The notes under the pieces were generated by a model. That model saw only the letters and a list, made by a program, of their open reading frames with translations. It was not told the origin of the DNA and made no database searches. Below are positions 59 to 63,450 of a stretch of 64,000 bases of DNA, one piece after another. Where the stretch lies: the IMG/VR virus record IMGVR_UViG_3300047510_001256, positions 1 through 64,000 of that record. One strand, 5' to 3'. Source of the DNA: a virus. Within the stretch, counting starts at the first letter, position 1. The number at the start of each line of letters is the position of its first letter. The translations under genes and the position numbers were made by a program.

Positions 59-118
59 AGTATGGATCAGATCGGTGGCAGAGTCAAGCGATGTGTGCCA
101 CCTGTCTGACTGTCACAT
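59..118 (-). promoter_or_regulatory. sigma70-type promoter with upstream dyad (copy A)
   Basis: On the minus strand the -35 box TTGACT (82-87) and -10 box CATACT (59-64) are 17 bp apart. A dyad with half-sites GTGACA and TGGCAC (93-118) lies just upstream of the -35 box and overlaps the stop codon of the gene at 113-271. The transcript would run leftward off the window; positions 1-58 are its leader and contain no convincing gene, only an 8-codon ORF ending at position 1. Confidence 0.75.
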
Positions 119-271
119 GCCGTTGAGATAGTCTGCCAATGCCTCTTTATAGTCTGCCTCAGTGTAGAAGGTCCGGGCACCAATCGTCCGAGGATAGGTA
201 GCCTTAGGGGCAGGCATCTTGCTAGGTTCCTTACCCTGCTGGGCAATCTGGCGAGTGTAGATGTTGCTCAT
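113..271 (-). CDS. hypothetical protein, 52 aa
   Basis: The protein starts MSNIYTRQIAQQGKEP and ends ADYLNGM. The N-terminal half is basic and proline-rich, followed by a short acidic helix-prone tail. No family is recognised. Its TGA stop lies inside the dyad of promoter A. The next gene upstream starts about 20 bp away, so it is probably co-transcribed from promoter B. Confidence 0.6.
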   Translation of the reverse strand: MSNIYTRQIAQQGKEPSKMPAPKATYPRTIGARTFYTEADYKEALADYLNGM

Positions 272-292
272 TGTTTGTTGGTTAAGTGTGAA

Positions 293-475
293 TCAGGCGC
301 AGATCAGAGATTCCATTCGGATCTCTTTGACTTCCATCGTAGCATAATCGTAACCGTCAACATCCGTCAGGCGTTGATAGTATGCTTCGGCAGCAGACTT
401 ACAATCATACAGGCGCAGGGAATCGAAGTGCTCGCCTTCATAATCCCAACCACCGATCACAGCGTAGACTTTCAA
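293..475 (-). CDS. hypothetical protein, 60 aa (TTG start)
   Basis: The protein begins (M)KVYAVIGGWDYEGEHFDS and looks like a small alpha/beta protein with a YDCKSAAEAY helix. I chose a TTG start at 475 because a GAGG ribosome-binding site lies five bases upstream and because promoter B starts transcription near 496, which rules out the longer frame. It resembles small conserved cyanophage early proteins; function unknown. Confidence 0.6.
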   Translation of the reverse strand: MKVYAVIGGWDYEGEHFDSLRLYDCKSAAEAYYQRLTDVDGYDYATMEVKEIRMESLICA

Positions 476-502
476 AATCACCTCGTTTCGTTTGTTGATA
501 CT

Positions 503-562
503 AGTATGGCACCCCAGAGGGGACAATGGGGAGAATGGTGGACACCTTGCCCACTGTCACAC
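503..562 (-). promoter_or_regulatory. promoter with upstream dyad (copy B)
   Basis: The -10 box CATACT is at 503-508 and the dyad (GTGACA and TGTCCAC half-sites) at 538-562. There is no canonical -35 box: the region reads TTCTCCCC. Even so, the distance from dyad to -10 matches copies that have a good -35. The distal half overlaps the GTG-TGA end of the gene at 557-739. Confidence 0.65.
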
Positions 563-739
563 TCCCTCTAGCAGTTCGGGATAGTATTCTGTAACCTCAG
601 CAATTAGCTCCTCTTCAGTATAAGAATCCATATCATTGTCCATATAATCAAACAACATAGCAAGACAATCTTTCATGTCCATACCATCAATCACGTTGTT
701 GATGTAGGCGTCTTGAAGATCTTGGCGGTTAGTCATCAT
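557..739 (-). CDS. hypothetical acidic protein, 60 aa
   Basis: It starts MMTNRQDLQDAYINNVIDG and has a strongly acidic C-terminus (EEELIAEVTEYYPELLEGV). The likely fold is all-helical. The start overlaps the stop of the upstream membrane-peptide gene (ATGA). Function unknown. Confidence 0.65.
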   Translation of the reverse strand: MMTNRQDLQDAYINNVIDGMDMKDCLAMLFDYMDNDMDSYTEEELIAEVTEYYPELLEGV

Positions 740-861
740 TTGATCAGGGGAGAGTTGTAATAGGAACGAAAGACTGAAACCATGATAATCAGGGTGCTGG
801 TGACACCTACCAAACCCAGGTAGGTTACACTATCACCAACAAAGTTAAGCGTAGCAGGCAT
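736..861 (-). CDS. single-span membrane peptide, 41 aa
   Basis: It starts MPATLNFVGDSVTYLGLVG, followed by one hydrophobic segment (TSTLIIMVSVF), and ends FRSYYNSPLIK. It is a paralog of the 42-aa protein at 3214-3342, which has the same layout: FVGD or FSGD, a YLGL/FLGL helix, and FRxYxNSPL at the end. Probably an inner-membrane protein of unknown role. Confidence 0.65.
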   Translation of the reverse strand: MPATLNFVGDSVTYLGLVGVTSTLIIMVSVFRSYYNSPLIK

Positions 862-865
862 GATT

Positions 866-1009
866 TCAGGCAGCAAAGTTGAATTGTTCAGGGTTCATGT
901 ACATCATGTATTCTTCCTCATTCATCATACAAACCCTGGCAAACTCTTCACGATCCTCATCGCTCATGTCAAAGATTTCGCCGGGCATGTCTTGAATCTC
1001 ATCCCACAT
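866..1009 (-). CDS. hypothetical acidic, Met-rich protein, 47 aa
   Basis: The sequence (MWDEIQDMPGEIFDMSDEDR at the start) is acidic with nine methionines, including a CMMNEEEYMMYMN stretch. Its start codon lies about 30 bp downstream of the -10 box of promoter C. Unknown function; possibly a small host-protein-binding peptide, but nothing in the sequence shows this. Confidence 0.6.
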   Translation of the reverse strand: MWDEIQDMPGEIFDMSDEDREEFARVCMMNEEEYMMYMNPEQFNFAA

Positions 1010-1037
1010 AATGTGTTCGTTTCGTTTCAACAAAGGT

Positions 1038-1096
1038 AGTATGGCATCAAATCAGGGGCAGCAGGGAGAATGGTGGACACTCTCCCAACTGGCACA
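1038..1096 (-). promoter_or_regulatory. promoter with upstream dyad (copy C)
   Basis: The -10 box CATACT is at 1038-1043 and the dyad (GTGCCAGTT and TGTCCAC) at 1073-1096. The -35 region is not canonical. From dyad to -10, copies B and C share GTGTCCACCATTCTCCC. The dyad starts seven bases after the stop codon of the gene at 1103. Confidence 0.65.
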
Positions 1097-1102
1097 ATAT
1101 GA

Positions 1103-1294
1103 TCAGAATACGATCTCTTCTAGAGTAGGTTGCCCATTCACTACAGGTAGGGTGACATTCACACTGGGGAGAGTAACAAATCCATCCACAGGTTGAGCAT
1201 CATTAACGTCGCTGGTGATAGCATCAAGAATAGAAAGGATTTGCTCGCCAGTCTTACCTTGACGCAGAGCAGAGATCATCAGTTTGGTGTTCAT
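1103..1294 (-). CDS. hypothetical protein, 63 aa
   Basis: It starts MNTKLMISALRQGKTGEQIL, with a helical N-terminal half (QILSILDAI) and a beta-rich valine/proline C-terminal half. I chose the ATG at 1294 because the longer frame uses TTG. The N-terminal pattern resembles small cyanophage and cyanobacterial proteins of unknown function. Confidence 0.65.
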   Translation of the reverse strand: MNTKLMISALRQGKTGEQILSILDAITSDVNDAQPVDGFVTLPSVNVTLPVVNGQPTLEEIVF

Positions 1295-1321
1295 AATCAA
1301 AAAATGGTAAAGTGTAAAGAA

Positions 1322-1426
1322 TCAGTCTTGAGTAGTGTAGTCTATGTCCACATCTTGTGGATCATCATAATATTCTGGATCATCAGTTTGTTCATTCAAT
1401 TCATCATACATTTCCTGAATTGTCAT
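1322..1426 (-). CDS. hypothetical acidic peptide, 34 aa
   Basis: It starts MTIQEMYDELNEQTDDPEYY and continues with more Asp and Tyr (DVDIDYTTQD at the end). A GAGG-like ribosome-binding site (rc of aactcctc) lies upstream. It sits in series with flanking same-strand genes. Very short, so only moderately certain. Confidence 0.5.
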   Translation of the reverse strand: MTIQEMYDELNEQTDDPEYYDDPQDVDIDYTTQD

Positions 1427-1443
1427 TAGTTAACTCCTCAGAT

Positions 1444-1758
1444 TCAGTTGAGACGCATACCAGAGAAGAAAGGAATCTCACCCCCTTCCTGACTCACGAA
1501 CCATTCAAACTTACGTTGAAAGACTCGCTCACCAGGCAGACCATGCTCAGAAAGAATAGCATTCAGGCGAGATTTGGTAGTGTTAGATTGCCAACCGCCA
1601 TCAAACAAAGTGATGAAATTCTCACCAATCTCGGCAATCTTGTTACCATGCAGGAGCACGACAGCGATATCATCTGCCATCACAACGTTAGTGTTAGCAG
1701 AGCGAAAATCTTTGCCAGCAGTGATAGCGGCATTCATCAGACGTTCAATCTTACGCAT
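1444..1758 (-). CDS. conserved hypothetical protein, 104 aa
   Basis: The chosen start gives MRKIERLMNAAITAGKDF and lies about 20 bp downstream of the predicted start of promoter D, which excludes the longer frame. The middle holds NKIAEIGENFITLFDGGWQS followed by TTKSRLNAIL. The pattern is that of a compact alpha/beta protein seen in other marine cyanophages and related phages. Function unknown. Confidence 0.7.
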   Translation of the reverse strand: MRKIERLMNAAITAGKDFRSANTNVVMADDIAVVLLHGNKIAEIGENFITLFDGGWQSNTTKSRLNAILSEHGLPGERVFQRKFEWFVSQEGGEIPFFSGMRLN

Positions 1759-1783
1759 TTGCTGAAATTTGTTTGATGTATAC

Positions 1784-1843
1784 AGTATGGACCGGATCGG
1801 GGAGAAAGTCAAGCGGTTTGTGCCACTTGTCTGACTGTCACAC
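1784..1843 (-). promoter_or_regulatory. sigma70-type promoter with upstream dyad (copy D)
   Basis: -35 TTGACT (1807-1812), 17-bp spacer, -10 CATACT (1784-1789). The dyad (GTGTGACAGTC and TGGCAC halves) at 1818-1843 is nearly identical to copy A and overlaps the GTG-TGA end of the next gene upstream. Confidence 0.78.
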
Positions 1844-2008
1844 GGTAGCAGGTGACAGCGAGACTTCCACACGTTTAATATTCAAACCCTGCAGCTGTTC
1901 GTTAACACGCTTGCAGATAGATTCAGTGGGATTCTTTAATTTGGACTTTTCATACCAAATGGTAGTGCAACCATCGTTAGTCTCAACCTGAACGCGAATA
2001 GTTTTCAA
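1838..2008 (-). CDS. hypothetical protein, about 56 aa (start uncertain)
   Basis: The likely start is a TTG at 2008 giving (M)KTIRVQVETNDGCTTIWYEK, preceded by GGGAA. An ATG at 2029 would precede the predicted transcription start of promoter E. The rest is a short beta hairpin and helix ending VEVSLSPATV. No family recognised. Confidence 0.5.
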   Translation of the reverse strand: MKTIRVQVETNDGCTTIWYEKSKLKNPTESICKRVNEQLQGLNIKRVEVSLSPATV

Positions 2009-2031
2009 CGTGAATTCCCGACAACTCATAT

Positions 2032-2088
2032 ACAATACACGATATCTGGGGGAATGGGGAGATTAGTGGACACTTCAGAAACTGTCAC
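2032..2088 (-). promoter_or_regulatory. promoter with upstream dyad (copy E)
   Basis: The dyad (GTGACAGTT and AAGTGTCCAC halves) is at 2066-2088 and the -10-like box TATTGT at 2032-2037, shifted one base from the other copies. The -35 region reads TCTCCCCATTCC, as in copies B and C. The dyad includes the TGA of the upstream gene. Confidence 0.6.
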
Positions 2089-2242
2089 CCCAATCATCGT
2101 TTTGGTCCTTGAATTTGGTAACTTTCTTCTTGGATTGGCGACGTATGTTCTTTACATCGTATCCATAATCTTCAAATTCATCTTCATAGTAACTGGACTT
2201 GCTGTTAATATTAGGACGATAATCGTATTTCTTGTTAGACAT
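2075..2242 (-). CDS. hypothetical charged protein, 55 aa
   Basis: It starts MSNKKYDYRPNINSKSSYYE and is rich in Tyr, Asp, Lys and Arg, with a basic patch (NIRRQSKKKVTKFK) and an acidic end (DQNDDWGDSF). Probably largely disordered. Its stop codon lies in the centre of dyad E. Unknown function. Confidence 0.6.
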   Translation of the reverse strand: MSNKKYDYRPNINSKSSYYEDEFEDYGYDVKNIRRQSKKKVTKFKDQNDDWGDSF

Positions 2243-2255
2243 AATAGCTGTTTAA

Positions 2256-2483
2256 TCAGATCTCTTGAAGATTGTTATTAGAACGCTGTTGGTGAATATA
2301 TTTCCCAACAGATACATTATTTAGAATATTAGTTACTAAATCAATCACAAATAGATTGATATTACTACTAGTATACTGATATTCTTTATCTTTATTGTTA
2401 TTATATACCAAAGATACTACATTATCTTTAATATAAACAGAATCAATAGCAGAACTATTAAAATCTGAAATCTTTAGATTCAT
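2256..2483 (-). CDS. KTSC-domain-like protein, 75 aa
   Basis: The N-terminus has SSAIDSVYIKDNVVSLVYNN, then a YQYTSS strand and a VGKYIHQQ end. This matches the KTSC fold pattern (SSxI, aromatic strand, xGxY) found in small phage and bacterial proteins. The role of such proteins is not settled; they often sit near nucleic-acid enzymes. Transcribed from promoter F through a 120-base, very AT-rich leader. Confidence 0.6.
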   Translation of the reverse strand: MNLKISDFNSSAIDSVYIKDNVVSLVYNNNKDKEYQYTSSNINLFVIDLVTNILNNVSVGKYIHQQRSNNNLQEI

Positions 2484-2610
2484 TTGATTGTTAAAAAACT
2501 AAAAAGGATTAAAATTTAATAAATAGGAAATCTTAAATTCTTAAAAAACTCAAAATCTTAAAAAAGTGAAAAATTGAGATTTTGAAGTTTCTTGGATTTC
2601 TTACTTTTTA

Positions 2611-2669
2611 AGTATAGGGCAAAACCCAGTCCCTGTCAAGGTCTGTGTGCCACTTGGAGAACTGGCATA
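2611..2669 (-). promoter_or_regulatory. near-consensus sigma70 promoter with upstream dyad (copy F)
   Basis: -35 TTGACA (2634-2639), 17-bp spacer, -10 TATACT (2611-2616), likely one of the strongest promoters in the early region. The dyad at 2645-2669 has halves ATGCCAGTT and AAGTGGCAC, pairing almost perfectly. It reads into the KTSC-like gene. Confidence 0.85.
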
Positions 2670-2675
2670 GTGGGG

Positions 2676-2732
2676 GTTGACATCCTGTTAGGTGGTGTGC
2701 TAAGACTCCAACAGGCCCGCACAATTGTCAAC
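2676..2732. other. 57-nt element able to form an enclosed pseudoknot
   Basis: Three perfect complementary pairs are interleaved: GTTGACA (2676-2682) with TGTCAAC (2726-2732); CCTGTT (2684-2689) with AACAGG (2710-2715); TGTGC (2696-2700) with GCACA (2719-2723). The last two cross each other, forming an H-type pseudoknot closed by the first stem. It works on either strand. It lies directly upstream of dyad F. No known ribozyme or riboswitch consensus was recognised. Confidence 0.5.
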
Positions 2733-2841
2733 AATACAACACATTACCTATATTTTTTTAAACATTTATTAATAATACCAAACACCATCAAATTGCGGTG
2801 TGAAACCCATTGCTATCACTGACGCGGAGCAATACGAATCA

Positions 2842-3024
2842 CTATCGTTTTTTCCTATCAATCACCTCTACATGTGAGAGGAACTGACTAGGTGTTTGAA
2901 ACCATCGTGCTTGGCATTCATCATACCATTCATACACCTCTACCTGACCATTAGATAGAACAAGTTTATACTTATGTCTATCATATGATTGATGTGATGT
3001 TTGTGTAAATGTATTAGGTGTCAT
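2842..3024 (-). CDS. hypothetical protein, 60 aa
   Basis: It starts MTPNTFTQTSHQSYDRHKYK and contains a beta hairpin (YKLVLSNGQVEVYEWYDE) and a helical QARWFQTPSQFLSHVEVI end. The ATG is preceded by AGGAAAC. Unknown function; small cyanophage proteins of this type are common in the early region. Confidence 0.65.
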   Translation of the reverse strand: MTPNTFTQTSHQSYDRHKYKLVLSNGQVEVYEWYDECQARWFQTPSQFLSHVEVIDRKKR

Positions 3025-3048
3025 CTGGTTGTTTCCTATATGTAAGTC

Positions 3049-3213
3049 CTAGGTAGATGAAATAGATCCCAATGAGTGATAGCATCCAAATTCGTTTGTG
3101 TAGTATAGAAATGAATTGATATTAGGTTTTACATCTAAAGAGAAGCAGCAATCAAGATACGAATCAAAATCAATTTGTAACTCTTTAGATAGGGTGATAT
3201 TAACCTCTTTCAT
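3049..3213 (-). CDS. hypothetical protein, 54 aa
   Basis: It starts MKEVNITLSKELQIDFDSYL, with a Cys pair (DCCFSL) and a Tyr-rich end. It starts immediately after the upstream membrane-peptide gene ends. No family recognised. Confidence 0.6.
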   Translation of the reverse strand: MKEVNITLSKELQIDFDSYLDCCFSLDVKPNINSFLYYTNEFGCYHSLGSISST

Positions 3214-3342
3214 TTAACGACGAAGAGGAGAGTTGAAATAACGCCTGAAAGCAGTGACCACAATAACAAGCGTGGAAACCACACCAAGTAGACCAAGGAA
3301 GGTAACAGCATCACCACTGAATGTGTAAGTGTCTGGAGTCAT
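3214..3342 (-). CDS. single-span membrane peptide, 42 aa
   Basis: It starts MTPDTYTFSGDAVTFLGLLG, followed by a hydrophobic segment (VVSTLVIVVTAF), and ends FRRYFNSPLRR. It is a clear paralog of the 41-aa protein at 736-861. Its start overlaps the stop of the upstream gene by one base (TAATG), implying translational coupling. Confidence 0.7.
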   Translation of the reverse strand: MTPDTYTFSGDAVTFLGLLGVVSTLVIVVTAFRRYFNSPLRR

Positions 3343-3500
3343 TAGATAAATTCCTGAATGTAATAGTCAACGGTAATCTCAAGTTCAGCAGCAAGTGCCT
3401 CTAACTCTTGGTAATCATGAAGCAATTCACGATGAGTAGAGTTAGGTAGTCTACGATAGATTGTCTGTCCTTTATCAGGAGATTCGTAGATGTAATTCAT
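3342..3500 (-). CDS. hypothetical protein, 52 aa
   Basis: It starts MNYIYESPDKGQTIYRRLPN and continues as a helix rich in Glu and Leu (HDYQELEALAAELEITVDYY). The N-terminal YIYESPDxGxTxYRR pattern is familiar from small proteins of marine cyanophages. Function unknown. Confidence 0.7.
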   Translation of the reverse strand: MNYIYESPDKGQTIYRRLPNSTHRELLHDYQELEALAAELEITVDYYIQEFI

Positions 3501-3629
3501 TTAATCGTCGTAGTTGTGATGAGTGTTACGATAGAGATTATCTTCTTGTTCTTTGTTTGGTTGATGTATCACATAGTTAACTACTAATGCTGTCACCATA
3601 CCACCGAAATACCAGAATAAAATAGTCAT
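3501..3629 (-). CDS. N-terminally anchored membrane peptide, 42 aa
   Basis: An N-terminal hydrophobic segment (ILFWYFGGMVTALVVNYVI) is followed by a charged tail ending NTHHNYDD. This suggests a single membrane span with a soluble C-terminus. It abuts both neighbours without gaps. Unknown role. Confidence 0.6.
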   Translation of the reverse strand: MTILFWYFGGMVTALVVNYVIHQPNKEQEDNLYRNTHHNYDD

Positions 3630-3775: not shown

Positions 3776-3776
3776 A

Positions 3777-3944: not shown

Positions 3945-3968
3945 GGTCTCGTTCGTTTGTATGAATGT

Positions 3969-4028
3969 ATTATGGCATGGTGTGCGGTGATTCGCAACAG
4001 GTCATGTGCCAGTATCTGAGCTGTCCAC
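3969..4028 (-). promoter_or_regulatory. sigma70-type promoter with upstream dyad (copy G)
   Basis: -35 TTGCGA (3992-3997), 17-bp spacer, -10 CATAAT (3969-3974). The dyad at 4006-4028 has halves GTGGACAGCT and ACTGGCAC. Its proximal half contains the ACA-TGA end of the upstream gene. Confidence 0.72.
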
Positions 4029-6370: not shown

Positions 6371-6429
6371 AATATACAGGAGAATCCACCCCACCGGGGG
6401 GTGAGGTGGACAGCTTGCCTAGTGGCACA
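6371..6429 (-). promoter_or_regulatory. promoter with dyad and extra palindrome (copy H)
   Basis: The -10 box TATATT is at 6371-6376 and the dyad (GTGCCACT and TGTCCAC halves) at 6406-6428, starting just after the upstream stop. Instead of a -35 box there is a second palindrome, CCACC-x-CACC / GGTG-x-GGTGG, at about 6386-6409, which overlaps the proximal half-site. Confidence 0.65.
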
Positions 6430-8644: not shown

Positions 8645-8703
8645 AGTATAGGGCATCTGGTGGGCAGTGGGGAGAATGGTGGACAGCTCATGAGGTGGCA
8701 CAC
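8645..8703 (-). promoter_or_regulatory. promoter with upstream dyad (copy J)
   Basis: -10 TATACT (8645-8650), one base nearer than usual to the dyad at 8679-8703 (GTGCCACCT and AGCTGTCCAC). The -35 region reads TTCTCCCC, as in copies B, C and E. The TGA of the methyltransferase gene sits in the dyad centre. Confidence 0.7.
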
Positions 8704-9467
8704 GCCTCGATCCGCTGCCTGGCATAATCAATATAGTCTGCATCAATATCGTAACCAATATAATCCCAATCAAGATTAATTGCGGCAACTGCTGTAGTCC
8801 CTGTGCCCATGAATGGATCAAGAACTATACCATTCTCAATACCAGTCAGTTTAATACAATCCGCAACCAATTTAACTGGAAATGTAGCTGGATGCTTGCC
8901 TCTGAGTTCTTTACTATTAATAGTTTCGTATGGTATAAACCAGCAATTGCCCTTGTCTCTCAAATTTGGTTTGGTGTCAATAGTATTCTTACCACGAATG
9001 TTTGCTTCGTAGTATTCATACTTAACACCAACTGCAAGACGATCTACATTTACATTACCATCTTTTGTGAAGTGAAAGAGATGCTCCCATGTAGGACATA
9101 GAAATCTTTTACTATTAATTGGTTTGAAATGTCCGCTTGTCTTGTCATTTACATGAATAGATTTCACCCAGTTAATGTGATTTTGCAAAATCCAATCATT
9201 TCTGAGTGCAAGACCGACCTCCATGCCCACCCATGGATCAACATTAGAATATCCCATGTTCACAAACAAATGCCCATTATCCTTGAGCACACGCTTACCT
9301 TCACGAAATATCTCTACCAACCAATCAATATACTCTTGGCGTGGTTTGTCATCAGAATATTTACCATATTTGATATTAAGATTATATGGAGGAGAGGTGA
9401 TGATAGCATCAACACTCTCGTTCTCCAATTGCTTCATACCAGTCAAACAATCAAGCAAATAGAGCAT
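8688..9467 (-). CDS. DNA methyltransferase (N6-adenine or N4-cytosine), beta class
   Basis: The catalytic motif TSPPY is at residues 24-28 and the AdoMet-binding motif DPFMGTGTT is near residue 220. Motif IV before motif I marks the beta class of DNA amino-methyltransferases. Length (259 aa) is normal for phage enzymes. The chosen start (MLYLLDCLTGMKQLENESVD) overlaps the upstream nuclease-like gene. It would methylate phage or host DNA at a short recognition site that cannot be read from the sequence. The neighbour at 9451 suggests a restriction-modification-like pair. Confidence 0.88.
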   Translation of the reverse strand: MLYLLDCLTGMKQLENESVDAIITSPPYNLNIKYGKYSDDKPRQEYIDWLVEIFREGKRVLKDNGHLFVNMGYSNVDPWVGMEVGLALRNDWILQNHINWVKSIHVNDKTSGHFKPINSKRFLCPTWEHLFHFTKDGNVNVDRLAVGVKYEYYEANIRGKNTIDTKPNLRDKGNCWFIPYETINSKELRGKHPATFPVKLVADCIKLTGIENGIVLDPFMGTGTTAVAAINLDWDYIGYDIDADYIDYARQRIEACATS

Positions 9468-9885
9468 TACGATCACCAAATGGAATAGAACCCTTAGTAT
9501 ATTGAGTCAGATCAGATCCACGTTTGAATACAACGCGAACCTTAGGGAATTCTACCACATCACAGAAGATGTAGATCATCTTCATAGAATGTTCACGATG
9601 CTCATCAATATCAACAGACCGACCAACACCAAGATATTTGGATGCACAGAATTTGGCACCACCTTTAGTGAAACATTTGGCATCATACTTGACACCATTG
9701 GGATCTACATGATCGTATCCCTTGCCATCAACAAACATCAATTCAGGAAACCATTCTTCAAGTTGCAATTCAAGAAAACCAGATGCACGACGACCATCAG
9801 TGAATAGTTTATTCACACGCTCTTGCGAGAGAGTTCCAAATGCTGCTGGGCACTCAAAGTTATAAACTTGATTGAGTTGAATCAT
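9451..9885 (-). CDS. putative PD-(D/E)xK nuclease, restriction-enzyme-like, 144 aa
   Basis: A compact alpha/beta protein. The segment YDHVDPNGVKYDAKCFTKGG (about residues 58-77) fits the D...(D/E)xK active-site hairpin of restriction-type nucleases, followed by a SKYLGVGR strand. It is the first gene after promoter K and overlaps a DNA methyltransferase by 17 bases. That order and coupling support a restriction endonuclease of a phage R-M-like pair, but the family was not recognised directly. It could instead be a nuclease accessory or a sequence-specific nicking enzyme. Confidence 0.55.
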   Translation of the reverse strand: MIQLNQVYNFECPAAFGTLSQERVNKLFTDGRRASGFLELQLEEWFPELMFVDGKGYDHVDPNGVKYDAKCFTKGGAKFCASKYLGVGRSVDIDEHREHSMKMIYIFCDVVEFPKVRVVFKRGSDLTQYTKGSIPFGDRNALFA

Positions 9886-9906: not shown

Positions 9907-9964
9907 ATTGTAGCAGGTCAGTCGCCCGATAGGGCAGCACCCAGACACCTTGACAAGTGGCACT
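9907..9964 (-). promoter_or_regulatory. promoter with partial dyad (copy K)
   Basis: -10 TACAAT (9907-9912); the dyad at 9943-9964 has a good distal half (GTGCCACTT) and a weaker proximal half (AAGGTGTC). No canonical -35. The whole element lies inside the 3' end of the gene at 9918-10094. It reads into the nuclease/methyltransferase pair. Confidence 0.6.
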
Positions 9965-14296: not shown

Positions 14297-14325
14297 AATT
14301 TAGCAGAGAAATCTCCGCTTGTCAA
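14297..14325 (-). promoter_or_regulatory. sigma70-type promoter with palindromic spacer
   Basis: -35 TTGACA (14320-14325) overlaps the TGA of the upstream gene; 17-bp spacer; -10 TAAATT (14297-14302). The spacer itself is a near-palindrome (GCGGAGA TT TCTCTGC). No GTGnCA dyad is present. Confidence 0.65.
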
Positions 14326-14756
14326 CGGGCATACAGATAAGAACCTGCCCAGTCAGCATTCTCAAACAACCATTCACGCTCACTAATGACGCGGAGATCG
14401 TAACGAACACCCTTAGCAGGAGACTGCCAGGAGGCAGATTTATAGACTTCACCAGTCTTCTTGTCCACAAATGCGTGAACAGAACGGGAACCATCCGCAG
14501 TCATGATGATCTTGTGATACTTACGACCCGACTCAAAAGTGAAGTCATAGTTACACTTACCTTGCCTCAATTCAGCAATACAGGCATCATGATACTCCAC
14601 ATCAGATGTGCGAAGTGCGTGAGACCGAATAGAGTAATCAATAAAGTTCTGACGCAGTGCCTCACATAGTTCCCAAGTCCACTTAGTAACATTCAATTGA
14701 ATGGTATTCTTAGCGTCTTGCTGAGCAACAAATTGATCGAAGGTGGCGCTGGTCAT
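14322..14756 (-). CDS. conserved hypothetical protein, 144 aa
   Basis: It starts MTSATFDQFVAQQDAKNTIQ. The region VHAFVDKKTGEVYKSASWQS followed by PAKGVRYDLR matches a small family seen in phages of cyanobacteria and actinobacteria. Its biochemical role is not known. It is the first gene after promoter L. Confidence 0.75.
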   Translation of the reverse strand: MTSATFDQFVAQQDAKNTIQLNVTKWTWELCEALRQNFIDYSIRSHALRTSDVEYHDACIAELRQGKCNYDFTFESGRKYHKIIMTADGSRSVHAFVDKKTGEVYKSASWQSPAKGVRYDLRVISEREWLFENADWAGSYLYAR

Positions 14757-14778: not shown

Positions 14779-14837
14779 ATTATAGGGTCTCAGGTGGTGC
14801 TGACGACGAGGTGTGTGACACTAAAACAACTGGCACC
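14779..14837 (-). promoter_or_regulatory. promoter with upstream dyad (copy L)
   Basis: Consensus -10 TATAAT (14779-14784); dyad at 14811-14837 with halves GTGCCAGTT and AGTGTCACAC. The -35 region (TCGTCG) is poor. The element lies inside the 3' end of the gene at 14790-15086. Confidence 0.72.
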
Positions 14838-15086
14838 CTGCGGCGGCGGCATGGCAGAATATGGTGTTACAAATTCAGCAAGTTTACCGGGTTTCTTAGC
14901 ATTGACTGGGGATACAATCTTCATATCCTTCTTGCGAAGAAATCCCCAGATAGTCTTTACTTCTTCAGTTGTGTAACTATACGGAAAAGAATGATGTAAC
15001 CAGATAGCATGATGCTTAGCATCAAAATCCCGCTGAACAACAAATTTGTATCCATCTGGTGCCTTAGGTAGTGTAACTTTACTCAT
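14790..15086 (-). CDS. hypothetical protein, 98 aa
   Basis: It starts MSKVTLPKAPDGYKFVVQRD. Residues 35-70 look like a small basic domain (FLRKKDMKIVSPVNAKKPGK). The last 25 codons double as the dyad and -35 region of promoter L, so the C-terminus (CFSVTHLVVSTT) is likely set by the regulatory element. Confidence 0.65.
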   Translation of the reverse strand: MSKVTLPKAPDGYKFVVQRDFDAKHHAIWLHHSFPYSYTTEEVKTIWGFLRKKDMKIVSPVNAKKPGKLAEFVTPYSAMPPPQGASCFSVTHLVVSTT

Positions 15087-15107: not shown

Positions 15108-15166
15108 ATAATACATCATTATTTGGTGAATTGGAGGTTTTATGTGCCAGTTTGCGAACTGCCACC
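15108..15166 (-). promoter_or_regulatory. promoter with upstream dyad (copy M)
   Basis: -10 TATTAT (15108-15113); dyad at 15144-15165 with halves GTGGCAGTT and AACTGGCAC around a GCAA/TTGC core. No canonical -35. The dyad encodes the last residues of the upstream gene, whose TAA follows directly. Confidence 0.7.
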
Positions 15167-17636: not shown

Positions 17637-18890
17637 TCAGATGGAATATTCGGTAGCAGCGATACCTTTGATGAAGATGTTCTCAATGATCGCTTGAAGA
17701 CGCTTCTCAGTGCGCTGACCATAGTTGGCGAACACAGGCACAGTCACGAAACCAGTCTTCTTACGATAGAACTCACACGCACCAGCAGCAATCTTGCCAG
17801 AGGCAATATCAGCAGCATCACGGCGATCAAGACGAATCACACGCCCAATGGTCTGTGCCATCTCAATGACGGGCAGACAACGCAGCAGGATAGTGTGAGT
17901 GAGACCAGGGCAATTGATACCCTCAGCAAGAATGCTGTAGTGGAAGATGATCATCTTGATAGTAGGATCCTCACCCCACTTAGTCATAGTGTTAAAGAAC
18001 ACCTCACGACCAACTTTCTGACCATTGACATAGGCACCATGCTTCGCAGTGATATGAAGCACGTTGTAACCATGAGCAGTGAAGTGAGAGATCACATCAG
18101 TCTTGGTCAGCAGACGCCACAGAACTTTAGTGTTAGGAGCAGCAACCAGAATCTTCTGGGCATGTTCGTCATCCAGTTCGTCAATAATGTCAAGCAGAAC
18201 TTGCTTGTCATTGTCAGCTGCGGCAAGAGACTTTTGGCGAGCAAAGTCTACTTTGTGCGACTTGATGGTAGGAGGAAGAATGCTGCCGTTCTCAATCAGT
18301 TCAGGAGCAGGCACACTGATCAGTTCCTCACCATACACCATGGTATTGTTCATACCATTGGCATAAGGATTGTTGTGATACTTAGGCGTAGCAGTGAAGA
18401 AATAAGCGTTGGTGGCGTTACCAGCAACGTCAGCAACAGTCGGGAAGAAATCACGACGAACGCTGTTATGTGCCTCGTCAAAGTAAACGAAGTCCACATC
18501 AATCTCACTCTCAACAATACGATTGAGAGACTGATAGGTGGTGAACAGCAGGCAGTGAAGACCAGCGTTCAGAGTGACATCGTTGAAACCACGAATTACA
18601 GCAGGTTTGGTGCTGTGAAAGTGATCAGTCTCACCGCTGTGAACGTGACCCACAGCAGCATGAACATCACCATTCAGAGCAGACCAGAACTCTTCGCAGA
18701 GTTGGTTAGCAAGCAGAATGCGGGGAGCAACGATTACAGCAGTCTTAGGGGCATCAGAAGCGAGCAGACGACGCTTGAGATCCTCAATAGCAATCAGAGT
18801 CTTACCACCACCCGTAGGGATGATAATACGACCCGTGTTATGCTTCTCCATAGCGGCGAGAGCACGTTGCTGGTGGGGACGGAGGTTCAT
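17637..18890 (-). CDS. superfamily II DEAD/DEAH helicase, 417 aa
   Basis: Motif I PTGGGKT (25-31), Walker B FDEAH (near 140), motif III TATP (near 170), and motif VI region QTIGRVIRLDR (near 350) define a type III R / UvsW-like SF2 helicase. An N-terminal LRPHQQRAL Q-motif-like start is present. It probably unwinds branched DNA or RNA:DNA hybrids during replication or recombination. It is the longest early gene in the left block and has its own promoter (copy N). GC content is slightly higher than in the surrounding tail genes. Confidence 0.88.
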   Translation of the reverse strand: MNLRPHQQRALAAMEKHNTGRIIIPTGGGKTLIAIEDLKRRLLASDAPKTAVIVAPRILLANQLCEEFWSALNGDVHAAVGHVHSGETDHFHSTKPAVIRGFNDVTLNAGLHCLLFTTYQSLNRIVESEIDVDFVYFDEAHNSVRRDFFPTVADVAGNATNAYFFTATPKYHNNPYANGMNNTMVYGEELISVPAPELIENGSILPPTIKSHKVDFARQKSLAAADNDKQVLLDIIDELDDEHAQKILVAAPNTKVLWRLLTKTDVISHFTAHGYNVLHITAKHGAYVNGQKVGREVFFNTMTKWGEDPTIKMIIFHYSILAEGINCPGLTHTILLRCLPVIEMAQTIGRVIRLDRRDAADIASGKIAAGACEFYRKKTGFVTVPVFANYGQRTEKRLQAIIENIFIKGIAATEYSI

Positions 18891-18912: not shown

Positions 18913-18972
18913 ACTATAGGGTCATTTGCCGCCCACGTCAAGGGGTGTGTGCCAGTTTGCAGACTGCACACT
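18913..18972 (-). promoter_or_regulatory. sigma70-type promoter with upstream dyad (copy N)
   Basis: -35 TTGACG (18936-18941), 17-bp spacer, -10 TATAGT (18913-18918). The dyad at 18947-18971 (GTGTGCAGT and AACTGGCACAC) is one of the longest, with 9-10 paired bases and one bulge. It reads into the SF2 helicase gene and marks the border between the tail block and the early block. Confidence 0.83.
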
Positions 18973-39052: not shown

Positions 39053-39110
39053 ATAATAACAGGTTAGGTGGGTCTTGTCAAGGGGGGTGTGGCAGTTTTC
39101 GGACTGACCC
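39053..39110 (-). promoter_or_regulatory. near-consensus sigma70 promoter with upstream dyad (copy O)
   Basis: -35 TTGACA (39076-39081), 17-bp spacer, -10 TATTAT (39053-39058). The dyad at 39087-39110 has halves GGTCAGT and AACTGCCAC. It lies inside the 3' end of the 49-residue gene. It drives the small basic protein, the cupin and the oxygenase, an early-type promoter next to late tail genes. Confidence 0.8.
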
Positions 39111-39213
39111 CATGGAGGACGTTGAGTGCTTGAAGAGTCTCAGCAGTCTCTTCCCATTCCCAACTATTTCCATTAGAATCAGTGAAGTTTCTCTTGGTTA
39201 CTTTAAGCTTCAT
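39064..39213 (-). CDS. hypothetical protein, 49 aa
   Basis: It starts MKLKVTKRNFTDSNGNSWEW, then a Glu-rich helix (EETAETLQALNVLHGV). A second ATG nine bases upstream (39222) is possible. The last 18 codons double as dyad and -35 of promoter O. Unknown function. Confidence 0.6.
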   Translation of the reverse strand: MKLKVTKRNFTDSNGNSWEWEETAETLQALNVLHGVSPKTATPPLTRPT

Positions 39214-58500: not shown

Positions 58501-58501
58501 A

Positions 58502-59889: not shown

Positions 59890-59913
59890 TGTGTTTCAAA
59901 TCAATGTGTTCAT

Positions 59914-59942: not shown

Positions 59943-60085
59943 TCCGCATACCCGTCATCGTCATCACAGGATGTGTATCTGGGTCCGGACATATACGATT
60001 CAGTATCTGCGTATATTTCTACTTCCAATTCTTCTACAACTTCCTTTAACTTGTTTAGAATATCCTTGAGTTGTCTTCTTTCCAC
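59939..60085 (-). CDS. hypothetical acidic protein, 48 aa (GTG start)
   Basis: GTG start at 60085 (an in-frame TAG lies just upstream): (M)ERRQLKDILNKLKEVVEELE, one helix, then GPRYTSCDDDDGYAD. No ribosome site is visible, so translation is less certain. Confidence 0.48.
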   Translation of the reverse strand: MERRQLKDILNKLKEVVEELEVEIYADTESYMSGPRYTSCDDDDGYAD

Positions 60086-60118
60086 TGGTATCTATAGCAA
60101 CATTCCATTAATATCTAT

Positions 60119-60142
60119 AAAAAAAGGGGGCTCACGCCCCCT
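60119..60142 (-). terminator. Rho-independent terminator after the riboswitch-linked gene
   Basis: AGGGGGC TCAC-loop GCCCCCT hairpin (60125-60142) followed on the minus strand by seven T. A textbook intrinsic terminator for the gene at 60147. Confidence 0.92.
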
Positions 60143-60146
60143 GATA

Positions 60147-60278
60147 TTAATTAATTGATGCGAGCTGTGCTTCTTTAAGACGCTGCTCTTTTTCAATTTG
60201 TTCTTTAATCATTTGAAGAACGTTTAACTTACGCTCCTCAACGTTATATTTTACACCGCGATATGTTGCTGTTGTCAT
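60147..60278 (-). CDS. downstream peptide of glutamine-riboswitch type, 43 aa
   Basis: It starts MTTATYRGVKYNVEERKLNV. The TYRGVxY start resembles small cyanobacterial YRG peptides (DUF4278-like), which are often found directly behind the downstream-peptide RNA. The rest is a charged helix (IKEQIEKEQRLKEAQ). In Synechococcus and Prochlorococcus related peptides bind glutamine synthetase regulators; whether the phage copy does so is not shown. Confidence 0.8.
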   Translation of the reverse strand: MTTATYRGVKYNVEERKLNVLQMIKEQIEKEQRLKEAQLASIN

Positions 60279-60305
60279 TAGGTTTGCTCCTTTACTTTGT
60301 GGGTT

Positions 60306-60364
60306 AGGTGGCGTTCCTTCGGTTTCCCTACTTCCGTTCGCTATTTCCGAATAGCGAATGAACG
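60306..60364 (-). promoter_or_regulatory. glutamine riboswitch, downstream-peptide motif
   Basis: On the minus strand P1 is CGTTC / GAACG, enclosing a perfect hairpin TTCGCTATT-CGGA-AATAGCGAA. The conserved core reads GGAAGTAGG then CGAAGGAACGC, as in the glnA/downstream-peptide RNA family of cyanobacteria and cyanophages that binds L-glutamine. It lies directly before the 43-residue peptide gene. Confidence 0.88.
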
Positions 60365-60407
60365 TATTGTATCTATGAGATTATTTTTGTAACTTTAGAT
60401 ACAGAAT

Positions 60408-60737
60408 TTACCTTTCTACATAATCCAAGTTAAAATTGGTGGCATAGAGTTGCTCAATGATTATATCACAAGCAATCTTTGGATTAGATTCTCCGCATGT
60501 GAAAACATCAACTGCTGCCTCACCTTTCTCTGGCCATGTATGAATAGAGATGTGTGATTCAGACAGCAAACAAATCGCAGTGACTCCTTGAGGATCAAAC
60601 TGATGTGACATTGTTTGTAATACGTGTGCTCCACATGCTTCAGCAGCATTTTCTAATAGATCACACAGGAAAAACTCGTTGTCCAATAAGTCCAACGAGC
60701 ACCCGTATAGGTTCAATAGATAATGCTTGCCCATCAT
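60408..60737 (-). CDS. speD: S-adenosylmethionine decarboxylase SpeD, 109 aa
   Basis: LSESHISIHTWPEKGEAAVD (residues 58-77) contains the self-cleaving Ser61 that becomes the pyruvoyl group, His66, and Cys81 (FTCG). It starts polyamine (spermidine) synthesis. Length is that of bacterial class 1b SpeD. speD is common in marine cyanophages and may affect host photosystem or DNA packaging. Confidence 0.93.
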   Translation of the reverse strand: MMGKHYLLNLYGCSLDLLDNEFFLCDLLENAAEACGAHVLQTMSHQFDPQGVTAICLLSESHISIHTWPEKGEAAVDVFTCGESNPKIACDIIIEQLYATNFNLDYVER

Positions 60738-61036
60738 TTTTTCTTCTTGACCTCTTTAGTTTGATTTTGATTGCCCCATATCTTTGCTGGCACAGTTCCA
60801 TCAGTCCATTTCATAGACTGAATGACGCCACCAAACGTATCGTAATAGGCATCAAAAATATCGCTACGAGTTCCTTTCGCAATATCAAACCAAGAGACTT
60901 CTCCGTTGTCCAAAGTCATAAGATAACTATCTCTAGGAAGAGTCTTATCTTTTGCTGCCTCAGGAGAACAATTTTGTGAAAGAATTTTTATCGCATAACT
61001 TTCTAGGATTTTAATTTGCTCAGCATTGTAATTCAT
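60734..61036 (-). CDS. hypothetical protein, 100 aa
   Basis: The start at 61036 (MNYNAEQIKILESYAIKILS) overlaps the upstream stop (TAATG). It contains LDNGEVSWFDIAKGTRSDIF, and a basic end (NQTKEVKKKK). Not recognised. It overlaps speD by four bases. Confidence 0.68.
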   Translation of the reverse strand: MNYNAEQIKILESYAIKILSQNCSPEAAKDKTLPRDSYLMTLDNGEVSWFDIAKGTRSDIFDAYYDTFGGVIQSMKWTDGTVPAKIWGNQNQTKEVKKKK

Positions 61037-61470
61037 TAGCTTCGTCCACCCCATACAATCTGGGGGAACGCTTCTTCTACACATTGCTTAGTGATCTTCC
61101 AACGCTTACCAATCTTCTTGTCCTTCATGAGACAGATAAGTTCTGCCTCTTTGGAATGAAGATTCTCCAGCAACTGAATGAACATTATTTCTCTTCTAGT
61201 TTGCTGGAGTTGTGGTGCTCCGCCCTTAAAGAAATAATAGAGTTTACGATACTCCTGATAGAGAGTTGTGTGTTCTGTCTCTTCAGGAGCATCGTTTGGA
61301 GTGTAAGGAACATTACCTTCAGGCAACTCACAAACTACACTCTCATCAAAGTTTGCGATGAGAACTGCTCTGAGTGCTGGAGAGTTGTGTTCTTGAAGAA
61401 GTTTTACTTTCTCAGTTTTAGTCTTTGCGTTGCTGACTTTCTGTAGAATTTCTGAAATTAGTAGTTTCAT
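61036..61470 (-). CDS. conserved T4-like phage protein, 144 aa
   Basis: The N-terminal SEILQKVSNAKTKTEKVKLL and EHNSPALRAVLIANFDESV resemble a family in T4-like phages (DUF6433-type in my memory). ETEHTTLYQEYRKLYYFFKG is also typical. Function unknown. Possibly helical DNA-related protein. Confidence 0.72.
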   Translation of the reverse strand: MKLLISEILQKVSNAKTKTEKVKLLQEHNSPALRAVLIANFDESVVCELPEGNVPYTPNDAPEETEHTTLYQEYRKLYYFFKGGAPQLQQTRREIMFIQLLENLHSKEAELICLMKDKKIGKRWKITKQCVEEAFPQIVWGGRS

Positions 61471-61495
61471 ATCAGTTCATCGTGTGTATTAATAT

Positions 61496-61735
61496 TTAGT
61501 CCTCATCTTCGTAATCATACTCATCTTCGTCTGCCATAAAGCGAACAGAATAAAGCTCTTCACGAATCATAACACCATCGTCATCATACATCTCGGGATG
61601 CATTTGAACTTGTGGTTGCTGTGCCTGGAGATAGATTGCGAAGACATCATTTGCTATCCATCCAATAGTTGTCCCCAAAACTAATGAACCTAGAACCATA
61701 AAGGATGTTAACAAGAGCATTAAAGATGAATCCAT
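61496..61735 (-). CDS. single-span membrane protein, 79 aa
   Basis: Residues 4-34 are one membrane helix (LMLLLTSFMVLGSLVLGTTI). The soluble part is Gln- and Glu/Asp-rich (DEDEYDYEDED at the end). Likely inner membrane with the acidic tail in the cytoplasm. Function unknown. Confidence 0.68.
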   Translation of the reverse strand: MDSSLMLLLTSFMVLGSLVLGTTIGWIANDVFAIYLQAQQPQVQMHPEMYDDDGVMIREELYSVRFMADEDEYDYEDED

Positions 61736-61751
61736 TTTCTTTCTCCGGAGT

Positions 61752-61910
61752 TTACTTACGATCCTCCCAAGTAAACTCTAATCTAAAAGAGATGATTTTA
61801 CTCAGAAGTGTGAATGTTTGTCTAACCTTGAGACCACTTCTTTCTGGTTCCCTTTCTGACCTCCTGAGCATGAGCTCCACACCTTTATTTATTTGTAAAT
61901 CCTCACTCAT
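61752..61910 (-). CDS. conserved small protein, 52 aa
   Basis: It starts MSEDLQINKGVELMLRRSER and continues KVRQTFTLLSKIISFRLEFT. Overlaps the glutaredoxin gene by eight bases. It contains AAATAAATAAAGG near its 5' end, which looks like a late element but lies within the gene. Confidence 0.65.
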   Translation of the reverse strand: MSEDLQINKGVELMLRRSEREPERSGLKVRQTFTLLSKIISFRLEFTWEDRK

Positions 61911-62157
61911 TTTTTTTAGAAGATACTAGACCCTTTTCTACAAACAATTTTACTGTTTCTATTATATCATATGAAACATCATCTATTATAATTATAGGAT
62001 ATCCTGCCATGTTTGGAAATTTTTTCTTTATTTCATCGGAAGTAATGTCCACATTAAGAACATATTTTTTATAGTCAGTGATCTTAGCCATCTCCATAAG
62101 AGTTAAGGCTTTTTTGCACCAAGAGCATCCAGGAGAAGTATATATTTCAATGTTCAT
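61903..62157 (-). CDS. glutaredoxin, 84 aa
   Basis: The start at 62157 gives MNIEIYTSPGCSWCKKALTL with the redox motif CSWC (residues 11-14), then the cis-Pro segment AGYPIIIID near residue 63. It supplies electrons to ribonucleotide reductase or keeps phage enzymes reduced. The longer frame would cross the psbA terminator. Confidence 0.92.
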   Translation of the reverse strand: MNIEIYTSPGCSWCKKALTLMEMAKITDYKKYVLNVDITSDEIKKKFPNMAGYPIIIIDDVSYDIIETVKLFVEKGLVSSKKNE

Positions 62158-62183
62158 TTTGATCAAAAAGATATTTAGAGAAT

Positions 62184-62208
62184 AAAAAAGAGGGCCTTGC
62201 GACCCTCT
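62184..62208 (-). terminator. Rho-independent terminator after psbA
   Basis: AGAGGG / CCCTCT hairpin (62189-62208) followed on the minus strand by TTTTTT. It isolates psbA from the glutaredoxin operon. Confidence 0.82.
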
Positions 62209-62234
62209 CAGTATATCAGATTTGAATCTGCTTG

Positions 62235-63314
62235 TCAACCGATTGCCGGTGCGGTGAGAGCCACTGGAGTGGATTCAGCGGTGGCAAGATCCAAGGGGAA
62301 GTTGTGAGCATTTCGTTCATGCATAACTTCCATCCCAAGTCCTCCTCGGTTAAGGATATCGGCCCAAGTCGGGATGACACGGTTCTGACTATCAACAATA
62401 CTCTGGTTGAAATTGAAACCATTAAGGTTAAAGGCCATAGTAGACACGCCAAGAGCAGTGAACCAGATACCAACAACAGGCCAAGCAGCCAGAAAGAAGT
62501 GAAGGCTACGAGAGTTATTAAACGAGGCATATTGGAAGATCAAACGACCGAAGTAACCATGAGCAGCTACAATGTTGTAGGTCTCTTCTTCTTGTCCGAA
62601 CTTGTATCCATAGTTCTGGGACTCGGTTTCTGTAGTCTCACGAACGAGACTAGAGGTGACAAGAGATCCGTGCATAGCAGAGAAAAGAGAACCACCGAAG
62701 ACACCAGCAACTCCCAGCATGTGGAAAGGATGCATAAGAATGTTGTGTTCCGCCTGGAAAACAAGCATGTAGTTGAAAGTTCCCGAAATCCCCAGAGGCA
62801 TCGCATCAGAGAAGGATCCCTGACCGAAGGGATAGACCAGAAACACTGCGCTAGCAGCAGCAACGGGTGCGCTGTAAGCAACACAAATCCAAGGACGCAT
62901 ACCCAGTCTGTAAGAAAGTTCCCATTCGCGTCCCATGTAGGCATAGATACCAATCAGAAAATGGAAGACGACCAGTTGGAAAGGTCCACCATTATATAGC
63001 CATTCATCAAGAGAGTTGGCTTCCCAGATGGGATAGAAGTGAAGACCAATAGCATTGGATGAAGGAACAACAGCACCAGAAATGATGTTGTTACCATACA
63101 TCAGAGAACCAGCAACAGGTTCGCGGATCCCGTCAATGTCAACGGGGGGAGCAGCAATAAAAGCAACAATGAAACAGATAGTAGCAGCGAGAAGGGTAGG
63201 AATCATCAGGGTTCCAAACCAACCGACATAGAGGCGGTTGTTGGTAGATGTTACCCACTCACAGAACTCGTTCCAAACATTGCTTTGTCGCTGTTGAGCG
63301 ATGGTAGCAGTCAT
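62235..63314 (-). CDS. psbA: photosystem II reaction-centre protein D1
   Basis: Full length (359 aa) with all five membrane helices. Residue 130 is Glu ([17 protein letters not shown]), the high-light D1:2 form. [20 protein letters not shown] is a typical cyanophage D1 loop, and HNFPLDLA marks the C-terminal processing site. It replaces damaged host D1 so that light energy continues to power phage production. Own promoter (63378) and terminator; no psbD in the window. Confidence 0.98.
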
Positions 63315-63377
63315 AGTTTTAAAAGTTCGTAAGGTTTAAAGTATGTGAAGAAATGTTTCCATTCCTTAACAATATTT

Positions 63378-63407
63378 AGTATACCCCATCACCAATTGGT
63401 CTGTCAA
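63378..63407 (-). promoter_or_regulatory. psbA promoter, sigma70-type
   Basis: -35 TTGACA (63402-63407), 18-bp spacer, -10 TATACT (63378-63383), 63 bases upstream of the psbA ATG. A dyad copy (63425-63450) lies about 12 bases further upstream than in the other promoters. Confidence 0.85.
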
Positions 63408-63424
63408 GCCCCAAAGATAGGTAT

Positions 63425-63450
63425 TTGTGCCTGTTCTCCAAGTGTCCACC
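63425..63450. promoter_or_regulatory. dyad element between psbA and the fibre gene (copy Q)
   Basis: Halves GTGGACACTT and ACAGGCAC on the minus strand. The distance to the psbA -10 box is 43 bases instead of 28-31, roughly one more helical turn. It also lies only four bases from the plus-strand late element at 63454, so it could act on either gene. Confidence 0.65.

Follow-up and report, generated by a model that had tools for sequence, protein, structure and literature searches.

A dyad held at constant spacing from -10 boxes marks small early-region genes of T4-like cyanophages and is a candidate activator site

What is the inverted repeat that recurs upstream of promoters in virus record IMGVR_UViG_3300047510_001256? 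The window analysed here is the first 64 kb (64,000 nucleotides) of that 144,687-bp record. It contains eleven tRNAs. All named phages that match it are cyanophages, and the matches cover no more than 5% of the query. An earlier note made from the sequence alone described at least 14 minus-strand promoters in the window that share an imperfect dyad close to the -10 box, and proposed that a dimeric activator or repressor binds there. We find that the dyad and its -10 box form a module of fixed geometry, linked to particular gene families and concentrated in T4-like cyanophages. The module is a feature of viruses of ocean and lake cyanobacteria, where it stands before many small early-region genes. 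On balance, we favor the reading that a dimeric transcription activator of the phage's sigma-70 early promoters binds DNA at the dyad.

All 14 copies could be located with the geometry described. The letters A-H and J-O are assigned here from the left end of the window, as the earlier note gave letters without coordinates. The gap between the proximal half and the -10 hexamer, claimed to be 28-31 bases, measures 28-31 bp in every copy. A -35 at 17-bp spacing had been claimed for A, D, F, G, N, and O, and these match TTGACA at 5, 5, 6, 4, 5, and 6 of 6 positions, respectively. The remaining copies (B, C, E, H, J, K, L, and M) were said to lack a good -35 and reach at most 3/6, save for L with 4/6 at 16-bp spacing, so that -35 status is borderline for G (4/6) and L. 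An open reading frame (ORF) of at least 38 amino acids begins no more than 160 nt downstream of 13 of the 14 copies. The exception is A, which runs off the contig.

Copy A, minus strand: dyad 95..116; -10 CATACT 59..64; -35 TTGACT 82-87, 17-bp spacing; gap 30; no downstream ORF found up to the end of the contig.
Copy B, minus strand: dyad 538..560 with TG-NN-CAC proximal half; -10 CATACT 503..508; no -35; gap 29.
Copy C, minus strand: dyad 1073..1095 with TG-NN-CAC proximal half; -10 CATACT 1038..1043; no -35; gap 29.
Copy D, minus strand: dyad 1820..1841; -10 CATACT 1784..1789, 25 nt upstream of the Kyano_Gp96-family gene 1444-1758; -35 TTGACT 1807-1812; gap 30.
Copy E, minus strand: dyad 2066..2088 with TG-NN-CAC proximal half; -10 TATTGT 2032..2037; no -35; gap 28.
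Copy F, minus strand: dyad 2647..2668, distal half with ATG for GTG; -10 TATACT 2611..2616; -35 TTGACA 2634-2639; gap 30.
Copy G, minus strand: dyad 4006..4028, distal half GTG-NN-CA; -10 CATAAT 3969..3974; -35-like TTGCGA (4/6) 3992-3997; gap 31.
Copy H, minus strand: dyad 6406..6428 with TG-NN-CAC proximal half; -10 TATATT 6371..6376; no -35; gap 29.
Copy J, minus strand: dyad 8679..8701 with TG-NN-CAC proximal half, overlapping the 3' end of the DNA methylase ORF 8688-9479; -10 TATACT 8645..8650; no -35; gap 28.
Copy K, minus strand: dyad 9941..9963 with degenerate proximal half TGTCTGG; -10 TACAAT 9907..9912, 21 nt upstream of ORF 9451-9885; no -35; gap 28.
Copy L, minus strand: dyad 14815..14836; -10 TATAAT 14779..14784, 22 nt upstream of the DUF7717 gene 14322-14756; no good -35; gap 30.
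Copy M, minus strand: dyad 15144..15165; -10 TATTAT 15108..15113, 21 nt upstream of ORF 14790-15086; no -35; gap 30.
Copy N, minus strand: dyad 18949..18971; -10 TATAGT 18913..18918, 22 nt upstream of the helicase gene 17637-18890; -35 TTGACG 18936-18941; gap 30.
Copy O, minus strand: dyad 39089..39111 with degenerate distal half; -10 TATTAT 39053..39058; -35 TTGACA 39076-39081; gap 30.

The core of the module is GTG-N1-2-CA-N10(11)-TG-N1-2-CAC. Its constant element is the inner CA-N10-TG (N11 in a minority), with the GTG and CAC flanks at one or two bases. The half-site, first given as GTGnCAGTT, is better written GTG-N1-or-N2-CAST; the proximal forms TGnCAC and TGTCCAC both exist, as two length variants of one half. 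Across ten training phages the consensus halves are TGTG(C/A)CA(G/C)T and its mirror, with GTGGACA / TGTCCAC as the long variant, and modules from IMG/VR contigs have the same consensus halves. The distance from the inner TG to the -10 box peaks sharply: in eight phages, offsets of 33, 34, and 35 account for 12, 30, and 11 matches versus 2.6, 1.8, and 2.6 in shuffled sequence. With the -10 box at -12 to -7, this offset places the dyad center near -53, and the dyad of copy L spans about -64 to -43. An association between a long proximal half and an absent -35, seen in the window, fails across the 206 phage modules (Fisher P 0.57). Among -35-less modules, a C-rich CCCCATT-like box occupies the -35 position in 13/58 with a long half and 6/112 with a short half, where one of the 13 is copy N in the wrong orientation; window modules B, E, and J are among the long-half modules noted for this box.

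The module exceeds chance expectation. Exact cores (GTG-N1-2-CA-N10/11-TG-N1-2-CAC) occur 13 times in the 144,687-bp contig versus 0.6 in Markov-1 shuffles, and those with a good -10 at an offset of 33-35 occur 11 times versus 0.1; GTGNCAGTT has 10 matches versus 1.6 expected. A composite model of dyad, spacer, and -10 box, trained on ten other phages with the window phage excluded, finds 29 matches scoring at least 20 in the window phage (both palindrome orientations counted) and none in 10 shuffles. Equal numbers of matches in shuffled sequence, which had been named as a refuting outcome, were thus not seen. The same model recovers all 14 copies, 13 of them scoring above 26 and K marginally at 17.5. 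Chance matches are expected about 0.6 times at a score of at least 16 and not at all at 18 or more, so K alone would be marginal. Throughout, phage genomes were shuffled by first-order Markov resampling, with 5 to 10 shuffles for each, and not by exact dinucleotide shuffling.

Every one of the 12 T4-like cyanophages tested, including P-SSM2 and the window phage, carries 13-25 modules. The counts below come from leave-one-out scans and the shuffled means from fresh shuffles.

Window phage (G000): 20 modules; shuffled mean 0.9.
Syn9: 14 modules; shuffled mean 1.5.
S-PM2: 24 modules; shuffled mean 1.6.
P-SSM4: 19 modules; shuffled mean 1.5.
S-SZBM1: 19 modules; shuffled mean 2.1.
G003: 14 modules; shuffled mean 1.4.
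Syn19: 13 modules; shuffled mean 1.9.
P-HM2: 17 modules; shuffled mean 2.5.
S-CRM01: 25 modules; shuffled mean 2.2.
S-RSM4: 20 modules; shuffled mean 2.6.
S-H9-1: 21 modules; shuffled mean 2.5.

Shuffled means in these 11 phages range from 0.9 to 2.6, and the largest single shuffle gives 6. P-SSM2, which was in no training set, has 20 modules versus 3.0 shuffled. T4 (0 versus 1.0), P-SSP7 (0 versus 0.4), and Syn5 (0 versus 0.2) have no module matches, and S-CBS2 (0, shuffled 0.0), PSS2 (1, shuffled 0.4), and Ma-LMM01 (1, shuffled 1.6) are at or near chance. The strict palindrome pattern gives the same picture, being found in 10 of 17 records, all of them T4-like cyanophages, with no match to the reversed pattern in any of the 17; the strict form is absent from Syn19 and S-SZBM1. 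The module is therefore lineage-bound and concentrated in T4-like cyanophages, and other phages with the same kinds of host fall outside its range. A modified version is present in S-TIM5 (NC_019516), a phage of a marine Synechococcus-type host that belongs to a second cyanomyovirus lineage. S-TIM5 has 8 modules versus 0.4-0.8 shuffled, all within 9 kb (162-171 kb), and in 4 of the 8 TGGCCC replaces the TGNCAC proximal half; the strict palindrome pattern has no match there.

The module is linked to particular gene families. In IMG/VR contigs, a module scoring at least 17 lies upstream of 45/67 Kyano_Gp96 genes and 49/69 DUF7717 genes, the median distance from -10 box to start codon being 25-26 nt, while the tail-tube gene gp19 has one upstream in 0 of 50 non-identical contig regions. 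Simple letter shuffles of the Kyano_Gp96, DUF7717, and gp19 upstream regions contain no modules. This test used 80 loci per gene, searched on the gene's own strand only, with 16 truncated loci and identical 120-bp upstream regions left out. It is more independent than a table of orthologs, yet both families were picked since known phages have the module there.

The ortholog table itself covers 74 of 232 Syn9 features, hand-picked with the modules already known, and is descriptive. In it, the module precedes Syn9 gp90 (Kyano_Gp96) in 8/8 phages, gp68 in 4/4, and gp73 in 4/4. Helicase gp75 has it in 7/8, peptidase gp150 in 9/11, CobS in 9/11, and DUF7717 in 6/10; because the table merges the two palindrome orientations and keeps the better score, copies A, D, and N fall on the plus strand, so that the window helicase is entered without a module and the window Kyano_Gp96 with the distant copy E, though N and D are there. 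Conversely, no module stands before any ortholog of gp17 to gp23 (7 genes in 11 phages each) or of gp41, gp44, gp45, gp46, gp47, uvsX, nrdA, and nrdB (11 phages each). The replication and metabolic genes that depart from this are gp32 and gp43 (4/11 each), psbA (2/11), and gp62, psbD, and hli (1/11 each). The module is also absent upstream of talC orthologs (0/9); as excerpted, the P-HM2 study (PMC5082946) places all auxiliary metabolic genes in the middle expression cluster. Orientation follows the genes in P-HM2, where five of six minus-strand modules precede minus-strand genes. The Syn9 modules at 43.1, 44.8, 46.3, 47.2, 48.6, 49.1, 51.0, and 53.0 kb lie among annotated small genes, and we take the genes of this 43-53 kb region to be early. 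The module is thus associated with small early-region genes and nearly absent before the virion and replication genes examined.

How might such a module work? A -35 with at least 5/6 matches to TTGACA is present in 36/206 phage modules, the other 170 falling below that mark, and in 5/91 contig modules (those scoring at least 20, which also supplied the contig consensus above and the contig covariation counts below). Since random positions match at a rate of only about 2%, the -35 subset is genuine, but with so few modules having a -35, something else would have to help the polymerase. Dyad symmetry, the fixed upstream distance, and the usual lack of a -35 fit the needs of an activator that touches the polymerase. 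In this mechanism a putative protein dimer would bind the GTG-N1-2-CAST half-sites, centered some 53 bp before the transcription start, and from that fixed position would help the host sigma-70 RNA polymerase at promoters with a -10 and usually no -35. A start codon lies 20-28 nt past the -10 box in 92 of the 193 modules having an ORF, and 18-34 nt past it in 107, so that about half of the modules would each drive a gene unit with a short leader. Protein binding, activation, and early action are what we infer from these patterns of sequence.

Several observations weigh against an activator of this kind. In the window, a -35 accompanies six of the 14 dyads, and these promoters could perhaps do without assistance. 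Roughly 30% of the homologous contig genes have no module above threshold (22/67 for Kyano_Gp96 and 20/69 for DUF7717), and gp32 and gp43 also carry one in 4/11 phages each. The SAR11 T4-like phage HTVC008M has 3 matches versus 0.9-1.6 shuffled, all scoring 17.1-17.2, just above threshold, and no exact dyad. No binding protein was found either: among 34 Syn9 and 42 window ORFs, Pfam lists no helix-turn-helix, ribbon-helix-helix, or Ogr family. Lastly, the sole annotated transcriptional regulator with a similar distribution, Syn9 gp230 (10/10 other module phages, 0/5 others), lacks a recognizable DNA-binding fold and is missing from the module-bearing S-TIM5.

The search for the protein drew on Pfam and on PHROGs lists holding the best 25 of 52 and the best 25 of 46 families. 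For the Syn9 ORFs, the sole Pfam matches of this sort are to MazE/AbrB-like (weak, E 0.00025) and Arm-DNA-binding (0.032) families, and Kyano_Gp96 matches no other Pfam family above the cut-off. gp147 (DUF3110), MazG, gp230, and a frame overlapping regA are each present in 10/10 other module phages and 0/5 others, a weak test in that the five others include the module-bearing S-TIM5 and two unrelated podoviruses. All four were rejected as candidates, as their absence from S-TIM5 counts against each; gp230 ("transcriptional regulator", PHROG 385) additionally has no recognizable DNA-binding fold in Pfam, and an apparent trace of it in S-TIM5 proved spurious. With the precise site, the gene list, and the lineage range in place, looking for the binding protein becomes a direct experiment.

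A host cyanobacterial transcription factor recruited by the phage would overlap with the activator reading and differ in the source of the protein; we judge this unlikely, although it is the strongest of the alternatives. Early genes need a factor that is present at entry, and all module-rich phages infect cyanobacteria, the SAR11 phage having threshold-level matches only. Yet the host scan that the earlier note had called for revealed no enrichment of the dyad in 201 host-family genomes. The exact dyad occurs once each in 15 of them, compared with 22 matches to the reversed pattern in 16 genomes, which leaves no candidate host regulon; of the 15, two fall within ORFs that are orthologous and, judged by eye, of LysR type. 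The module is missing from two podoviruses and two siphoviruses with hosts of these kinds, and in S-TIM5 the half-site is altered despite a marine Synechococcus-type host. These counts would still be compatible with a host factor whose chromosomal sites are few or degenerate.

Since the host genomes show no matching regulon and the podoviruses and siphoviruses of the same host kinds lack the module, a protein of the phage lineage is favored, and the activator is probably phage-encoded or phage-carried rather than a host regulator. The altered half-site in S-TIM5 fits a phage protein that evolves in step with its site. Should transcription of these genes begin right at entry, the activator would have to be delivered in the virion, unless the first few promoters fire weakly in its absence. 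More tentatively, and with rather less than even confidence, we suggest that T4-like cyanophages carry their own immediate-early activator, a dimer supplied by the virion or in the first minutes of infection. Through a lineage-specific dyad at about -53, it would let the unmodified host sigma-70 polymerase use -35-less promoters, where T4 needs no such protein for its early genes, and site and protein would have co-diverged in the S-TIM5 lineage.

The earlier note had left activator and repressor side by side. There is strong support for a promoter-linked DNA site of the protein-binding type, because the distance is fixed, the module is conserved before the same gene families, and the halves do not covary; the choice between the two kinds of regulator is an interpretation. 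In a repressor scheme the promoters would fire on entry and an early protein would then bind the dyad and shut them off as a timing switch. Dyads are typical of operators, and the subset with a full -35 and -10 (the six window copies, one borderline, and the 36 phage modules) would need no activator. This scheme is nonetheless improbable: the dyad, centered at about -53, lies upstream of the core promoter and overlaps neither -35 nor -10, whereas one would expect an operator to sit over the promoter and to vary in position rather than hold a 33-35 bp offset. The dyad is also present where no -35 exists. We favor an activator over a repressor because most modules lack a -35 and yet keep the distance.

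A role in replication, recombination, or packaging, with the dyads merely near promoters, could draw on the clustering of many sites in one genome region (e.g., Syn9 43-53 kb), but it does not explain why the dyads keep a fixed distance and orientation relative to -10 boxes and start codons, and we give it very little weight.

The dyad can also be drawn as a stem, and the earlier note had offered an RNA hairpin ending upstream transcripts as its alternative. Stem pairing would predict covariation between the halves. In one set of modules, the N position is complementary in 8/25 cases (expected 11.6) and the S position in 26/113 (40.5); in the contigs the counts are N 18/32 (19.5), S 38/82 (45.6), T/A 54/82 (56.4), and inner5 56/82 (55.7). 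The C/G position is biased towards non-pairing combinations, and only the innermost of the five variable positions exceeds chance (29/82 versus 19.5, P 0.01). Because four of the five variable positions do not covary, the dyad behaves as a DNA site and not as an RNA feature. An intrinsic terminator has a complementary stem followed by a T-run. As the earlier note had observed, no T-run directly follows the dyad in any of the 14 window copies, and Rfam at gathering scores has no match at any dyad. A separate terminator-like hairpin with a T-run does lie between dyad and -10 in 21/206 modules, all in relatives and none among the 20 of the window phage. With complementarity not above chance in four of five variable positions and a fixed distance to the downstream -10, the idea that the dyad ends the upstream transcript as a hairpin or terminator is the least credible explanation of all.

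How does the module relate to known systems? Doron et al. (2016) reportedly described a "novel regulatory element" that controls Syn9 early genes and is conserved in T4-like cyanophages. That element, reportedly from Syn9 and P-TIM40, belongs to the same phage group; the module likewise stands before the small genes at 43-53 kb of Syn9 and is likewise conserved across T4-like cyanophages (12/12 tested). Since that Syn9 region carries eight modules, we think that the dyad is probably the same element. This analysis adds the length variants of the half-site, its fixed offset, its form in S-TIM5, and the tests on host genomes and contigs.

The late promoters activated by P2 Ogr and P4 delta have a dyad at about -55 with the form TGT-N12-ACA, a -10 without a good -35, and a phage-encoded activator. 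They appear to be the nearest mechanistic parallel, sharing an upstream dyad (module center about -53) and a -10 without -35, but because the consensus spacing differs this is likeness and not membership: the main form of the module is TGT-N18-ACA, and the P2 and P4 genes are late. Among the 34 Syn9 and 42 window ORFs, Pfam lists no Ogr-type zinc-finger protein. T4 middle promoters with MotA/AsiA also lack a -35 and need a phage DNA-binding protein; the MotA box lies at about -30, taking the place of the -35, unlike the dyad. CRP sites have the form TGTGA-N6-TCACA. NtcA sites have the form GTA-N8-TAC (PMC3037559). Both are likewise dyads for dimeric activators, but GTG-N-CA-N10-TG-N-CAC differs from them in half-site and spacing, so the earlier statement that neither fits holds by inspection.

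Promoters of these phages have been surveyed before. As excerpted, a 2010 review (PMC2984593) describes cyanomyoviruses as without motA and asiA homologs, calls early and middle control in the absence of MotA, AsiA, and Alt "still unclear", and notes sigma-70-like motifs upstream of early T4 homologs in S-PM2 and Syn9. The same excerpts report a putative middle-promoter motif that precedes homologs of T4 middle genes in P-SSM4 and Syn9 and is not found in P-SSM2, S-PM2, or S-RSM4. Like the module, it lies upstream of cyanomyovirus genes, but the module is present in P-SSM2, S-PM2, and S-RSM4 and for the most part does not precede genes of the middle type. Sullivan et al. (2010) searched for sigma-70, T4 late, Pho, and NtcA sites (PMC3037559, in excerpt), and Puxty et al. 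(2018) treated motifs upstream of psbA (PMC5931967, in excerpt). No printed description of the dyad was found in the excerpted literature searched, which did not cover Doron et al. 2016, and we do not claim that it is unpublished. Whatever its history, the module is a simple marker of candidate early operons in uncultivated cyanophage contigs.

Related patterns were also encountered outside the main set. At G000:119559, which is outside the window, and in S-PM2, S-RSM4, and S-H9-1, a dyad-like match recurs with conserved surroundings and may be a false positive from coding sequence. A first broad viral scan was read as listed matches only, many of them outside the cyanophage type. Among the matches listed, loci such as L023, L036, L037, L051, and L061 belong to a different viral contig family with TGTGCCAGTCGGTGCAACTGTCACA, where the adjoining sequence presumably resembles a cyanobacterial LexA box. 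Four others (L100, L102, L107, and L014) have dyads of the same half-site, some with a CATAGT-like -10 only about 14 bp away, an arrangement that is possibly an operator.

Two further features lie near the right end of the window. One is a glutamine riboswitch aptamer at 60308-60366 on the minus strand (Rfam RF01739, 51.5 bits), with a 43-amino-acid ORF (60147-60278) downstream. The other is an imperfect dyad of the same type at 63427-63449 on the minus strand, upstream of ORF 62235-63314, which we take to be of psbA type and whose relatives are cyanobacterial. The inner end of this dyad is 47 bp, not 34, before the -10 box, and the adjacent promoter has a -10 TATACT at 63378-63383 plus a TTGACA -35.

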